Shown: one piece after another, positions 5,591 to 10,489 of the stretch | Layout of the letters: the number at the start of each line of letters is the position of its first letter | Position numbering within the stretch: position 1 is the first letter of the stretch | NCBI GenBank assembly: GCA_947259815.1 | Contig: CAMYNO010000018.1 | Location: forward strand, 1 to 10,839 | Source: an uncultured Parvularculaceae bacterium | GTDB lineage: Bacteria; Pseudomonadota; Alphaproteobacteria; Caulobacterales; Parvularculaceae | Length of the DNA stretch: 10,839 nt | Direction of reading: 5' to 3' | Notes under the pieces: model-generated | Seen by the model: the letters and a program-made list of their open reading frames with translations, nothing else | The model's database searches: none | Told to the model about the DNA's origin: nothing | Translations under genes and position numbers: made by a program

Positions 5591-6277
5591 CTATATCCGT
5601 CGAAATTTGAGATACGCAGGTGCACGGCCCTCACGAGCGGCTTTTGCTTCGTACCGCGTCTGCGGCCAGTCAGCGGGCCGCACATTCCAGTCGTCTGCAC
5701 AGATTGCGGCCCATTCAAACGAAGGCGCGTTCTGTCCGTGCATCAACGTCCAGCGAATATAGTCGGGAATGTCTGAGGCGACGCGCAATTCACCGCCGGA
5801 GCGCAGCAACCGGGATGCTTCCTTAAAAAACCACGGGCTAATGATGCGGCGTTTGAAGTGACGTTTCTTCGGCCAGGGGTCAGGATGCAACACGAATATT
5901 TTGGTCAGCGATCCAGTAGACAACGCCTCCATGAGGGGGCGGGCGTCGCCGAAATGGATGCGGATATTTTCAAGGCCGCCTTCGTCAACCTTTGACAAGA
6001 GTTTTGCAACGCCATTGACGAAGGGTTCCGCACCTATCAAGCCGACATCGGGGTTCTGCGCCGCCTGCCAGGCGATATGTTCGCCGCCGCCAAAACCCAC
6101 CTCGAACCAGATTTCCCGTTTCCCAGAAAACATTGTCGCGGGATCGATTTCTCCCACGCCGGGGTCCGGCGTCGCAACGCGCGGCAGAAACTCCTCCATC
6201 AAGCGCGCCGGGCGCGCTCGCAAAGGCTTGTCTTGCCGTCGTCCATAGAGATTGGAAATGTAGCCTTGCTCGTCCAT
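5591..6277 (-). CDS. trmB: tRNA (guanine-N7-)-methyltransferase TrmB
   Basis: TrmB makes m7G46 in the variable loop of tRNAs using S-adenosylmethionine. The 228-residue product has the SAM-binding motif EVGFGGGEH (59-67), the family signature HPDPWPKKRHFKRR (131-144) and the late TRYEAKA segment (207-213). The open frame continues upstream to 6691, but that extension is the antisense of the next gene. The ATG at 6277 begins MDEQGYISNLYGRR, a typical family start. No Shine-Dalgarno precedes it; a TATAGA lies six bases upstream, so a leaderless message is possible. It stops with TAG. The gene belongs to the conserved metK-trmB-rimP neighbourhood but is separated here from both partners by extra genes. 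Confidence 0.96.
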   Translation of the reverse strand: MDEQGYISNLYGRRQDKPLRARPARLMEEFLPRVATPDPGVGEIDPATMFSGKREIWFEVGFGGGEHIAWQAAQNPDVGLIGAEPFVNGVAKLLSKVDEGGLENIRIHFGDARPLMEALSTGSLTKIFVLHPDPWPKKRHFKRRIISPWFFKEASRLLRSGGELRVASDIPDYIRWTLMHGQNAPSFEWAAICADDWNVRPADWPQTRYEAKAAREGRAPAYLKFRRI

Positions 6278-6367: not shown

Positions 6368-8707
6368 ATGACGAAGCGACGATACTGGACTGGTGCGAAA
6401 AAAGTGCCCGCACAGGACAAATTCTTTATCGGCGCGCTCGATCCCGATTTGTGGACCGCAGGGGACGAAACGAACTGGGACGCCTGTTGGCATACGGGCA
6501 TGCCGGCGCGCAGCATTTACAAAAACATGCGCCCCGGTCAGTGGGTCAATCACATGCCGGGCAATCACGCGCTGACGGTGAAATCCAAGCTGTTTGAAAC
6601 GCTGGATACGGCGCGCCGTCGCGCGCCCGCTGAATTGCAGGAAAAATATCAATTCTTCCCGCGCAGCTACCTGATGCCTGAAGGATATCACGCATTACAG
6701 AAAGACGCTTTCGCAGACCCGGAAAAACGCTGGATCTTCAAACCAAAAAGTCTCTCGCGCGGACGGGGCATATCTGTTTCAGCCGATGCGGGCACAGCGC
6801 CCATCGACGAAAAGATGCTCGTTCAGGAATATCTCAAACGCCCGCATCTTTATGACGGGCGCAAATATGTCCTGCGGTGTTATCTGGCGATCATGTCGGC
6901 TGAACCGCTGCGGGTTTATCTCTACAAGGAAGGGTTCGTAAAACTCGCGTCCGAACCATATAGCGATGGCGACTTCGGCAATCTCTACGCCCATCTGACG
7001 AACCCCGATGTGAATGCGCTCAACGAAGCCGTCGACGATTCGGTCGTCTTTCATAGCTTTGCCGATTATCGCCGATGGCTTGAGCAAAACGGCGCCGATC
7101 CCGCGCCTCTTTTTGACGCCTTGCGCGACATCGCCGTAATCACCGCGATCGCTGCACGAGATACGTTGCGCGAACGCACTACTGCAAGCGGCGCCTGGGC
7201 GCCGGGTTGTTGTGAATTGATCGGCATGGACTGCATGATCGATGCGGATCTCAAGCCCTGGCTTCTTGAATGCAATCTCAGCCCGTCACTCGGCGTCTGC
7301 GCAGCGCCGGAAACTGGCGGCATTATGGAGGAAGAAATCAAGCGCGCCGTTGTCGCTGATTTTGTCGCCATGTCCGGTTTGAATAATGGGGACGCCTTAT
7401 CGGCGGAACCCGACAATCTTGCCTCGCTTATCGCCGCCAGCGAGCAAGAAAGAGAACATGCCGGCGGTTTTGAATGTGTTTATCCGGGAGCGGCGCCCGA
7501 TGAATTTTTTCCATTTTTCCCGGCGCCGCGTCACGCCGATATTGCGCTTGCCGACACCGTATCGCCAACGGCAAGCAACGGATATATTCTTGCCGCAAAC
7601 GACACCAGCGAATACGCATTCGACGACAAGATTGCTTTGCATAAGGACGGCATGGCGCAGCCGATGTCGCCATCAACGGCTGGCGCCTATATATGGCTAC
7701 GCGCCACAGGTGGTGACGCGCCAGAAACAATCGCTAACGATCTCGCGGCGTTTGCCGGCGATGAGCCAGTTTCCAAAGATGCAGCCCTTAAGACGGTATG
7801 GGATACGCTCGCGGACTGGGGCGCCGCGGGGCTCTTGCGGCCCGCCAATATGTCGCCGCTCTCGGATGCGCCCATTTTCGCGCGGCCGGCCAATGAAGAG
7901 ATAGAACTCTTTTTCAAGTTCTCCGATCATGCGTATCGGCTTCGTCTCTCCTCGCCCGAAATCGCGCCACGGATCGAAGGCGTGATCGGTCCCTTGCGCA
8001 TCGACTCGCCCGATCAGGCAAAACCCACAGAGATTGTCGTGCTTACTGAGACTGCCGGTTATGCGATTGCCCTCAACTCACAGCTCTTGCGCACACGATT
8101 ACGCCTGGCGGAGATTGCGCCGGCGCTAGCCGATATCCTGGTGTCCGAATATGCGCGTACGCGCCTTGCAGCCCCAGTTCTGAACGCCAGCCTCTGGCGT
8201 ATGGATGGGAAGACCGTATTAATCGCGAGCACAAAAACCACGAGGTGGGATGGAATTGGCGCCGCCCTTTCCGCAGAGGGTAAAGCCGAGCTACTCGCAG
8301 GCGGCGTTTTATTGGGCGAGACGCCAGGCCTGGCTCACGCGGCGCCGGCGCCAGCCAGGGTAAAGATGGAAGATGCGCCGCAACCATCGCAGTTTATTAG
8401 TCAGTGGGCCAATGAAAGCGATGGGGTGCTTCTCGCTCTTCCGTCGCACCCTGAAGAATTACAATCAGTCGATGTGGTCGTGATTCCAAAATTACAAAAA
8501 AATGCGTCCGCGCAAGAGATCGCCCAGCTAAACGGGCGCGATGCATTTAATGCGCTCACCAATCTTTGCGCAGGCCCAGCAGTATCTGCAACGACTGCGG
8601 CGCGGTTGGCGCAATGGGCGGAGGAAATTCCCTGCTTCGCCGTCCCGTTCGCCGATTGCGCTGGCGGCGCGCGCGCAGTGGAGGCGGCAGTTTCAGCACT
8701 GAAATAA
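6368..8707 (+). CDS. Tubulin-tyrosine-ligase-like ATP-grasp / PqqD-like / degenerate HprK-like fusion protein
   Basis: The 779-residue product joins three parts. Residues about 60-335 are a TTL-type ATP-grasp ligase: WIFKPKS (122-128), RGRGI (131-135), VQEYLKRPHLYDGRKYVLRC (152-171), PLRVYLYKEGFVKLA (180-194), HLTN (209-212) and the metal-binding PWLLECNLSPSLG (297-309, Glu301 and Asn303). Such enzymes add amino acids to protein carboxyls in eukaryotes. Residues about 405-495 resemble PqqD, a peptide-recognition fold (MSPSTAGAYIWL, then a helical part). Residues about 505-779 follow the plan of HprK-like proteins, but the P-loop is absent: DGKTVLIASTKTTRW stands where GxxGxGKS/T is expected. 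AGGGGG eight bases before the ATG supports the start. It is divergent from trmB and convergent with the acidic lipoprotein gene. The substrate is unknown; peptide or protein tagging is an inference. Confidence 0.85.
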   Translation: MTKRRYWTGAKKVPAQDKFFIGALDPDLWTAGDETNWDACWHTGMPARSIYKNMRPGQWVNHMPGNHALTVKSKLFETLDTARRRAPAELQEKYQFFPRSYLMPEGYHALQKDAFADPEKRWIFKPKSLSRGRGISVSADAGTAPIDEKMLVQEYLKRPHLYDGRKYVLRCYLAIMSAEPLRVYLYKEGFVKLASEPYSDGDFGNLYAHLTNPDVNALNEAVDDSVVFHSFADYRRWLEQNGADPAPLFDALRDIAVITAIAARDTLRERTTASGAWAPGCCELIGMDCMIDADLKPWLLECNLSPSLGVCAAPETGGIMEEEIKRAVVADFVAMSGLNNGDALSAEPDNLASLIAASEQEREHAGGFECVYPGAAPDEFFPFFPAPRHADIALADTVSPTASNGYILAANDTSEYAFDDKIALHKDGMAQPMSPSTAGAYIWLRATGGDAPETIANDLAAFAGDEPVSKDAALKTVWDTLADWGAAGLLRPANMSPLSDAPIFARPANEEIELFFKFSDHAYRLRLSSPEIAPRIEGVIGPLRIDSPDQAKPTEIVVLTETAGYAIALNSQLLRTRLRLAEIAPALADILVSEYARTRLAAPVLNASLWRMDGKTVLIASTKTTRWDGIGAALSAEGKAELLAGGVLLGETPGLAHAAPAPARVKMEDAPQPSQFISQWANESDGVLLALPSHPEELQSVDVVVIPKLQKNASAQEIAQLNGRDAFNALTNLCAGPAVSATTAARLAQWAEEIPCFAVPFADCAGGARAVEAAVSALK

Positions 8708-8736
8708 AAAAAGGCGCTTCCCGAAGGAAACGCCTT
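8706..8736 (-). terminator. Intrinsic terminator, strongest for the minus-strand lipoprotein gene
   Basis: Stem AAGGCG/CGCCTT (8711-8716 and 8731-8736) continues, after one mismatch, into TTCC/GGAA (8718-8721 and 8726-8729) with loop CGAA. On the minus strand seven T follow (8712-8706). On the plus strand only a broken T-rich stretch follows, so it may serve the TTL-like gene less well. Confidence 0.8.
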
Positions 8737-8767
8737 CTTCAAAATCTTTTAAGCCAAACGACGTCGA

Positions 8768-9082
8768 TTACTGATCGTCTTCAGCGGCTTCTTCTGCTTC
8801 CTCGACAGCTTCTTCCGCTGCCTCTTCAAGGTCGTCATAAGCTTCTTCAGCAGCTTCTGCGGCGTCATCAATAGCCTCTTCCGCAGCTTCCGTCGCATCG
8901 TCGGCTGCTTCTTCAACAGCGTCTACGGCTTCCTCGACTTCCTCAGCTACGGTTTCTTCAGCCGCGCCTTCGTTGTCCGCCTGCGAACAACCAGCCAGCA
9001 AAAGCGCCGCTGGCGCGCCGACCATCAGCGCACGAGAGAGTCGCGCCAACATTTTTTCGCGTTCGTTTTTCAATTCCGTCAT
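8768..9082 (-). CDS. Small acidic lipoprotein with 11-residue Glu/Ala repeats
   Basis: The 104-residue product has a signal peptide ending in a good lipobox LLAGC (Cys32). The rest is low-complexity: 34 of residues 33-104 are Glu or Asp and none is Lys or Arg. From residue 44 it falls into 11-residue units starting at 44, 55, 66, 77 and 88, with a partial sixth at 99; the core form is AAEEA(I/Y/V)(D/E)(D/E)xxE. An 11-residue period suits a long amphipathic helix, as in apolipoprotein-like or LEA-like repeats. The ATG at 9082 lacks a strong ribosome site; an inner Met at residue 11 (9052) would give a more usual signal peptide. The function is not recognised. The gene faces the TTL-like gene across a terminator, and a palindromic operator-like site lies upstream. 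Confidence 0.8.
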   Translation of the reverse strand: MTELKNEREKMLARLSRALMVGAPAALLLAGCSQADNEGAAEETVAEEVEEAVDAVEEAADDATEAAEEAIDDAAEAAEEAYDDLEEAAEEAVEEAEEAAEDDQ

Positions 9083-9271: not shown

Positions 9272-10489
9272 TCAAAGCGCCGATTTCAGCGCTTCAACGA
9301 GATCGGTTCGTTCCCACGAAAAGCCGCCTTCATTGTCGGGCGCGCGTCCAAAATGGCCGTATGCGGCGGTTCTTGCGTAAACCGGCCGATTAAGGTCAAG
9401 CGTTCGGCGGATGCCAGAGGGTGACAAATCCATCGCCTCGCGCACAGCGCGCTCAAGACGTTCCTCATCAGCTTGGCCAGTGCCGTGAGTATCGACATAA
9501 ACCGATAGAGGCTGGGCGACGCCGATCGCGTAGGAAAGCTGGATCGTGCAACGCTCCGCCAGGTCAGCAGCAACAATGTTTTTGGCAAGGTAGCGCGCCG
9601 CATAAGCTGCCGAACGATCAACCTTCGTCGTGTCTTTTCCGGAAAAAGCACCGCCGCCATGGGGCGCCGCACCGCCATAAGTATCGACGATAATCTTACG
9701 GCCAGTGAGCCCGGCGTCGCCGTCCGGACCGCCAATGACAAACTTTCCGGTTGGGTTGATATGCCAAGCGCAGTCTCTCGAAATCTCGATCTCATTCAGA
9801 GCGCCGCGAATATAGGGCTAGACGACCGCGCGCACCTTTGCGGAATCCCAGGAAGGATCAAGATGCTGCGTAGACAGAACAATAGACGTGACTTCTGTCG
9901 GGCGCCCGTTTTCATAACGCACAGTTACCTGGCTTTTTGCGTCGGGCCCAAGGCTGCCGGCATCGCCAGCGCCCGCGTGGCGCGCGTCCGCCAGGTCTTT
10001 TAGAATGCGATGGCTATAATAAATTGGCGCCGGCATCAGCGCTTCGGTTTCCCGACAGGCAAAGCCAAACATAATACCCTGATCGCCTGCGCCCTCTGCA
10101 TTTGCGTCCGCAGCCTGGTCAACGCCTTGAGCAATGTCCGCAGATTGACCATGCAAAAGGACATCGATCTCTGCGGTTTCCCAGTGAAAGCCGTCCTGCT
10201 CATATCCGATGTCACGGATGGCGTTGCGCGCCGCATCAACGAAGGGCGCAGGCTCAACGCCGCCATTGGCCATGAGCGCTTCAGGCGCGCGCACCTCGCC
10301 GGCGATGACAACTTTATTGGTCGTCGTCAGCGTCTCACACGCAACCCGCACATCCCAGGGGCTCATGCCGGCCTTACCAGCCTCTCGATAAATCAGATCG
10401 ACGATTTCATCGGAGATCCGATCGCAAACCTTGTCCGGATGTCCCTCCGAGACGCTTTCGCTGGTGAATTGATAGGACTGACGCGCCAT
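9272..10489 (-). pseudogene. metK: S-adenosylmethionine synthetase MetK with one in-frame TAG
   Basis: MetK makes S-adenosylmethionine from methionine and ATP and is normally essential. Read through, the frame gives 405 codons of full family length, starting [20 protein letters not shown] (ATP-binding HPDK at 17-20), with [10 protein letters not shown] (about 133-142) and, after the stop, [21 protein letters not shown] (253-273), [12 protein letters not shown] (275-286), a complete C-terminal domain, and a normal TGA at 9274-9272. Codon 224 is TAG (9820-9818), just before PYI, where related proteins have an ordinary residue; GAG to TAG is a simple one-base change. The frame is unbroken on both sides, so this is a single nonsense change, not decay. 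Options are a base-call error, a fresh mutation with another metK elsewhere, or suppression. A 223-residue product would lack half the active site. Confidence 0.9.

Follow-up and report, generated by a model that had tools for sequence, protein, structure and literature searches.

The window, that is the whole stretch of 10,839 nucleotides analysed here, encodes a fusion protein (6368..8707, + strand; 779 aa) in which a TTL/TTLL-type ligase is joined to a PqqD-like domain and a presumed HprK pseudokinase, together with a convergent gene for an acidic lipoprotein (8768..9082, - strand; 104 aa), its proposed substrate. The two genes probably make up a two-gene system with the logic of RiPP pathways, in which the PqqD-like domain would bind the leader of the partner and the TTL domain would ligate an amino acid, likely glutamate, onto Glu residues of the partner's tail. 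This reading is built on computed results, namely domain content, catalytic residues, the lost P-loop, the leader and tail family, linkage and co-occurrence. An earlier note, made from the sequence alone, had suggested a one-protein peptide or protein ligase acting on a carboxyl end or a side chain; the co-occurrence of the partner supports such a ligase, ligation itself being predicted from sequence, and a C-terminus now appears the less likely target.

Domain organization of the fusion protein

The reading frame of the fusion is open and has full-length homologues. A longer reading that starts at 6077 is available, and most of 26 aligned homologues support a start at or near residue 1. Compared with NCBIfam, the window fusion protein had no match at E up to 10. 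Several database homologues carry the label “amylase”, which is without support in domain scans, and other family entries are named “tubulin polyglutamylase TTLL5”. A terminator-like hairpin with a T-run, read by eye, lies between the convergent fusion and lipoprotein genes (8705..8740, - strand).

The TTL/TTLL-type ATP-grasp ligase domain occupies residues 1-385 (6368..7522, + strand), and Pfam TTL matches the window protein with 174.7 bits against a curated cut-off of 20.1. The earlier note had recognised TTL in the N-terminal third; the identity stands, while the extent has to be corrected to about half of the protein. Structure prediction, set beforehand as a refuting test, returned the TTL ATP-grasp fold for the N-terminal domain. 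By sequence and by fold, the polyglutamylases TTLL6 (1.4e-40) and TTLL7 (1e-32) match best, and weaker matches are found to TTL (1.1e-13) and to chain 5vlq (5.3e-10), which we take to be the glycylase TTLL3. In a set of 118 sequences at least 700 aa long, K125, K166, R170, N212, D288, E301 and N303 are unchanged throughout (118 of 118), and these include the three residues (Lys125, Glu301 and Asn303) whose conservation was to be checked. K125 (6740..6742, + strand) is presumably the ATP-binding Lys, judged from TTL structures, and the equally invariant E301-C302-N303 (7268..7276, + strand; 118 of 118) contains what we take to be Mg/ATP ligands. With its catalytic residues intact, the TTL domain is predicted to be active.

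Besides, residue 131 is Arg or Lys and residue 304 is Leu in all 118 sequences. The counterparts of these two residues are Gln and His in TTLL6, and Arg and Ile in an engineered TTLL6 (6vzq-6vzs), whose engineering reportedly favoured branch initiation and gave a branch initiase. Because residues 131 and 304 resemble those of the engineered TTLL6, branch initiation may be predicted for the fusion enzyme by analogy, which is the weakest inference of this report.

The PqqD-like (RRE) domain is of the lasso-B1 type and covers about residues 405-495 (7580..7852, + strand). In the window protein itself, the Pfam PqqD model gave no match at E up to 10. Among the 26 aligned homologues, PF05402 (PqqD) matches 18 at E up to 1, the best at 3.8e-10, and NF033530 lasso_PqqD matches 12 at E up to 1. 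When a profile of the C-terminal half was compared with the PDB, only TbiB1 (6.4e-4) and TfuB1 (8.5e-3) were retrieved, which we take to be lasso-peptide B1 proteins; in the C-terminal model, the fold matches that were listed span residues 86-382 of that model, with the PqqD part outside. The PqqD-like domain that had been read by eye at this place is thus borne out by homologue matches and B1 structures, the window member itself being unmatched by Pfam. Because the domain is B1-type, a lasso-peptide gene cluster was considered, and it was rejected since neither a cyclase nor a B2-like protease was seen by eye among the shared neighbour clusters.

Residues 505-779 (7880..8704, + strand) have an HprK/PEPCK fold, in agreement with the earlier reading of an HprK-like region, which needs refinement in two respects: the P-loop is lost, and natural short forms of the fusion exist without this domain. 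No Walker A P-loop was found at the aligned position in 120 sequences; in the window the site of the lost motif reads ASTKTTRWD (8225..8251, + strand), aligned to the intact motif of PqqD-HprK relatives. HprK-like kinases phosphorylate in some lasso systems, and PqqD-HprK proteins whose P-loop is intact are homologues of this region, so the domain could be imagined as the active part that phosphorylates the partner. This is extremely unlikely in view of the missing Walker A motif and of the short forms, and we rejected HprK activity because the P-loop is lost; the domain would probably be a scaffold.

The PqqD-HprK relatives match TIGR04352 below its cut-off. L136 (G666:C175:2175-2909) is a 677-aa open frame in which a part that is glycosyltransferase-like by eye is joined to PqqD-HprK with an intact P-loop; it carries the same PqqD-HprK module on another modifying enzyme. 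At L116 (1393-3539), the gene after that of a stand-alone PqqD-HprK protein encodes 333 aa and had no NCBIfam match at E up to 0.1.

A partner family with a conserved leader and a Glu-rich tail

The partners are a family of small exported proteins with a conserved leader of about 30 residues, RxxLLxxLSRxLxYxAPxL, and a Glu-rich repeat tail. In the largest neighbour cluster the leader opens with RxxLLxxLSRxLxYxAPxLxxxAG and Glu-rich repeats come after it; the repeats in the tails are of the types GEAEGEAEG or TPEA. In the window lipoprotein, the leader NEREKMLARLSRALMVGAPAALLLAGC occupies residues 6-32 (8987..9067, - strand) and ends in what we take to be a lipobox, and a whole-genome search recovered the lipoprotein at 8957-9067. 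The acidic tail behind the leader (8771..8986, - strand) is 72 residues long and contains 24 E, 10 D and 23 A but no K/R. Both parts are atypical, with V where most leaders have Y, and with E-E and D-D pairs in place of spaced GEAEG.

To describe the family, we used the best 80 of 126 stretches from public genomes that encode a relative of the fusion. In these best 80 of 126 loci, the Glu content of the tail is 22-44% in all 101 leader proteins. For the 71 small partners of the same best 80 of 126 loci, the tail medians are 35% Glu, 23% Ala, 21% Gly and 0% Lys/Arg; these small tails hold a median of 2 Ser+Thr, and 46 of the 71 are without Lys. Ala or Gly comes after 93% of tail Glu, so most tail acids are spaced and not in runs. 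Short-form species carry TPEA/MPEA repeats that keep one Glu per repeat, and their tails are less acidic, with the lowest Glu contents (12-20% in the stretch measured) among 67 matches.

A CxxCH motif lies behind the tail in 30 of the 101 leader proteins (best 80 of 126 loci), and a SoxA/TsdA-type cytochrome c domain was above the Pfam cut-off after leader and tail in both of the two proteins scanned. Since leader and tail stand ahead of different haem domains, they look like a module placed on different proteins. At L131 (1489-2403), a leader and a GEAEG tail precede a weak cytochrome P460 match (23.7 bits against a cut-off of 27); this protein belongs to the L028 genome and lies on a different contig stretch from the fusion locus.

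Within the best 80 of 126 loci, 97 of the 101 leaders fit the motif-scan pattern, and of these 97 the residue at -3 of the conserved Pro is Y in 69 and the residue at +2 is L/M in 81, which gives YxxPxL. According to excerpts of a review (PMC6784204), YxxPxL is the leader motif of actinobacterial lasso peptides and proteobacterial lasso leaders have I/V/LxxxA instead. Because Proteobacteria are assigned I/V/LxxxA in this review, YxxPxL was unexpected from taxonomy. The leader also overlaps a signal peptide in part, so some of its conservation could serve export, and removal of the leader by signal peptidase cleavage is plausible.

Linkage and co-occurrence of leader and fusion

A leader protein was found in 77 of the best 80 of 126 loci, 76 of them at E<0.01, to which L030 is added. 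The nearest leader gene lies within 1 kb of the fusion in 75 of 76 loci, and it is 4.8 kb away in L054. When neighbouring genes were clustered by BLAST, the leader genes formed the largest group, with 58 genes in 50 of 97 loci, the next group having 39. The three loci without a leader gene are L011, L028 and L045. L011 is close to a contig edge, and two leader genes were found elsewhere in its genome; the L028 genome has one elsewhere; in the L045 genome (G588), which has the fusion and is outside the 410 genomes counted below, no leader was found.

For a held-out test, a leader model was built from 75 leaders of 52 loci taken as gammaproteobacterial. With training rows that had been chosen by a model which had seen all loci, it retrieves 26 of the remaining 28 loci at E<0.1, and 23 at E<1e-3. 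The matches amount to one ORF per locus out of 3397 ORFs, and they adjoin the fusion gene in all 25 loci with a computed distance. For the window, the lipoprotein is matched at 2.1e-6 and the next ORF at 0.53; the neighbouring lipoprotein, named in the earlier note as a candidate, therefore belongs to the leader family according to a model trained on other loci.

The survey for a co-occurring small gene that had been proposed was extended to 410 genomes, and it turned out that the leader is present in 55 of 55 fusion-positive genomes and in 3 of 355 fusion-negative ones; the whole-genome leader model includes sequences from some of the searched genomes, and the held-out test answers for the loci only. 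Among 60 relatives of the window, the leader occurs in 13 of 13 genomes with the fusion and 0 of 47 without it. The corresponding counts are 24 of 24 and 1 of 127 in 151 genomes of the G441 family (including the L020 genome, Franzmannia), 1 of 1 and 0 of 144 in 145 genomes of the G194 order, and 17 of 17 and 2 of 37 in 54 genomes of the G589 order. Because the genomes within each group are related, these counts are not independent events. Four genomes were counted as fusion-negative in spite of partial matches, namely G445 and G478 (short ATP-grasp matches), G459 (a 285-aa fragment) and G666 (no TTL), and no leader was found in any of them. Three of the 17 fusions of the G589 order (G760, G764 and G766) are interrupted by a single stop within the matched stretch.

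Linkage as the sole cause of co-occurrence is excluded, because the leader co-occurs though unlinked in four short-form genomes (G757, G762, G764 and G766), where the partner is 176 kb away, 141 kb away and, twice, on another contig. The leader protein is present with no fusion detected in G555, G758 and G767, for which possible explanations are that the fusion was lost recently, that the genomes are incomplete or that a different enzyme does the modifying.

We also looked at the site between trmB and metK in 8 of 11 fusion-negative congeners. In all 8, trmB and metK are present and the fusion gene is absent at the site, and no leader was found in these 8 genomes at E up to 0.001. Other DNA is found at the empty site in L186 (about 3.2 kb) and in L189 (about 1.6 kb). 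At empty sites the leader model gave either no match or values from 0.014 to 0.89, the lowest being one ORF in G014 (L183; E=0.014), compared with 7.8e-15 to 9.1e-9 for positive controls. A tblastn search with the window lipoprotein is uninformative at the empty sites, as it missed the positive controls L003, L005 and L008 too. These results fit gain and loss of fusion and leader as a unit.

Proposed mechanism and alternative explanations

We propose that the PqqD-like domain would bind the leader of the partner in the cytoplasm through RxxLLxxLSRxLxYxAPxL, a step suggested by the similarity to lasso B1 and by YxxPxL, and that this binding would bring the tail, flexible and rich in Glu, into the active site of the TTL domain. 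There the gamma carboxylates of spaced Glu would be activated with ATP and a free amino acid would be ligated to them, which would lead to branched mono- or polyglutamyl tails. The added residue and the target carboxylate are suggested by the similarity to TTLLs: glutamate is most likely added because the nearest solved relatives are glutamylases, and the Glu side chain is most likely the target because the tail is internal in haem-bearing proteins. Modification should precede export, since ATP is cytoplasmic. Export would follow. In the window clade the modified protein would be exported as a lipoprotein; other lineages probably send theirs to the periplasm, and these proteins often carry a haem domain after the tail. 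As for the role of the tail, our guess is that it provides charge or binds cations around proteins of the envelope in marine and halophilic bacteria.

The same enzyme-partner pair could instead attach glycine, tyrosine or another amine, or act on a C-terminal carboxylate. TTL-fold enzymes include a tyrosine ligase and the glycylases TTLL8 and TTLL10 (excerpts of PMC12340829), TTLL11 is able to add Glu at a C-terminus (excerpts of PMC11574253), and 19 of the 71 small partners (best 80 of 126 loci) end in AEG, the most frequent ending among them. We regard these variants as rather unlikely: the closest structures are glutamylases, which speaks against another residue, and the endings vary, with 25 different last three residues listed, while the CxxCH found behind 30 of 101 tails makes them internal, which speaks against the C-terminus. 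Intramolecular ester or amide cross-links, of the kind made by graspetide ATP-grasp ligases, are very unlikely. An ATP-grasp enzyme with a precursor does follow graspetide logic (excerpts of PMC8939145), and the assumption that the tails are free of nucleophiles is contradicted by the tail counts: a tail with neither Ser, Thr nor Lys occurs in just 2 of the 71 small partners and in none of the 30 haem-bearing proteins. Because tail nucleophiles are rarely absent, we raised this alternative slightly from a still lower estimate and lowered the main reading by a very small amount. However, the best Pfam family of the enzyme is TTL and not a graspetide-type ATP-grasp, and in most tails the nucleophiles are few and outside the repeats, against a median of 35% Glu.

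It is also quite unlikely that the leader is an export signal only, with the genes co-inherited for another reason and the fusion modifying something else. The overlap of the leader with a signal peptide would fit such a case, as would the three genomes that have a leader protein and no detected fusion. Against it, the conserved part covers the n-region (R, LL, LSR), Pro is present in 33 of 33 rows of alignment A2, co-occurrence holds without linkage, and the leader genes are the largest neighbour group. Leader-guided ligation of glutamate onto the tail is the reading that we prefer.

Comparison with known systems

The fusion system has its catalytic fold and acidic repeat tails in common with TTLL6/TTLL7 and TTLL5-RPGR. 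As described in excerpts of PMC13052805, a separate domain of TTLL5 holds a distant RPGR helix while the Glu-Gly repeats are glutamylated, and TTLL5-RPGR is the nearest mechanistic parallel. Unlike the TTLLs, the fusion is bacterial, it has a PqqD-like domain and an N-terminal leader where they use microtubule-binding or CID domains, and its proposed substrates are exported. The lasso-peptide B1 (RRE) proteins are the nearest solved relatives of the PqqD domain, and their leaders share YxxPxL; B1 has nanomolar affinity for the leader, which it presents to a partner enzyme (excerpts of PMC5067487). In contrast to lasso systems, no cyclase is proposed here, and a long repeat tail takes the place of the knotted core peptide.

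RimK, in which we know of no leader-recognition domain, resembles the fusion in the ATP-grasp ligation of glutamates to a protein, whereas the fusion belongs to a different ATP-grasp family (Pfam TTL). On S6, RimK adds up to 15 glutamates (excerpts of PMC4431377). SidJ of Legionella is another case of bacterial protein glutamylation (excerpts of PMC6858067), but it is an unrelated enzyme with a kinase-like fold and other targets (excerpts of PMC6858067 and PMC8548325). As to HprK-related kinase A/PqqD systems (TIGR04352, TIGR04353), the C-terminal half of the fusion is homologous to PqqD-HprK proteins, and the fusion differs by having no P-loop and a TTL ligase in front.

Bacterial TTL-family proteins were reportedly discussed by Iyer and co-workers (2009). 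We found no description of a bacterial TTL with PqqD in the literature searched, in a search that could miss spelling variants and most subscription journals, and the main text of two RRE surveys (PMC12710340, PMC7470986) contains nothing on tubulin or TTL. The known kinds, a TTLL ligase and RRE-guided modification, are here in a combination that is absent from the literature searched. Somewhat short of an even chance, in our estimate, is the wider proposal that this is a new class of leader-guided modification, which would put branched polyglutamyl on exported repeat-tail proteins and cytochromes, as a counterpart of the tubulin code, by a clade related to the ancestors of eukaryotic glutamylases.

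The TTLL literature that we found concerns tubulin and a few other eukaryotic proteins, and a compact bacterial enzyme with a leader-addressed substrate would give a simple system for TTL chemistry. If the proposal is true, a ligase class is added to the RiPP toolbox, and addition of the leader might mark a chosen protein for glutamylation. It would also mean that bacteria use an unexpected, polymer-like tag on proteins of the envelope, cytochromes among them, and would inform the question of where the eukaryotic TTL family came from.

Other genes around the fusion

Several other genes recur near the fusion. A DinB-like gene is present in 37 loci, often near the fusion and the leader gene (for instance L078, 12583-13203), and Pfam DinB matches the one example scanned at 1.8e-5. 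Besides, what we take to be an ECF-type sigma factor occurs in 39 loci (for instance L049, 8105-8737), and a small zf-HC2 protein in 17. These genes recur in many gammaproteobacterial loci, and we rejected them as core genes because in the window-type loci L002-L008 their clusters are missing around the fusion.

The genes that flank the pair in the window are presumably nusA, rimP, ttcA, trmB, metK and an esterase, and for several of them tblastn found relatives in the same order in congeners. The window metK (9275-10486, - strand) has a full-length match with one in-frame TAG, which is probably an assembly error in the draft genome; the 28 other genomes with a match are free of stops there.
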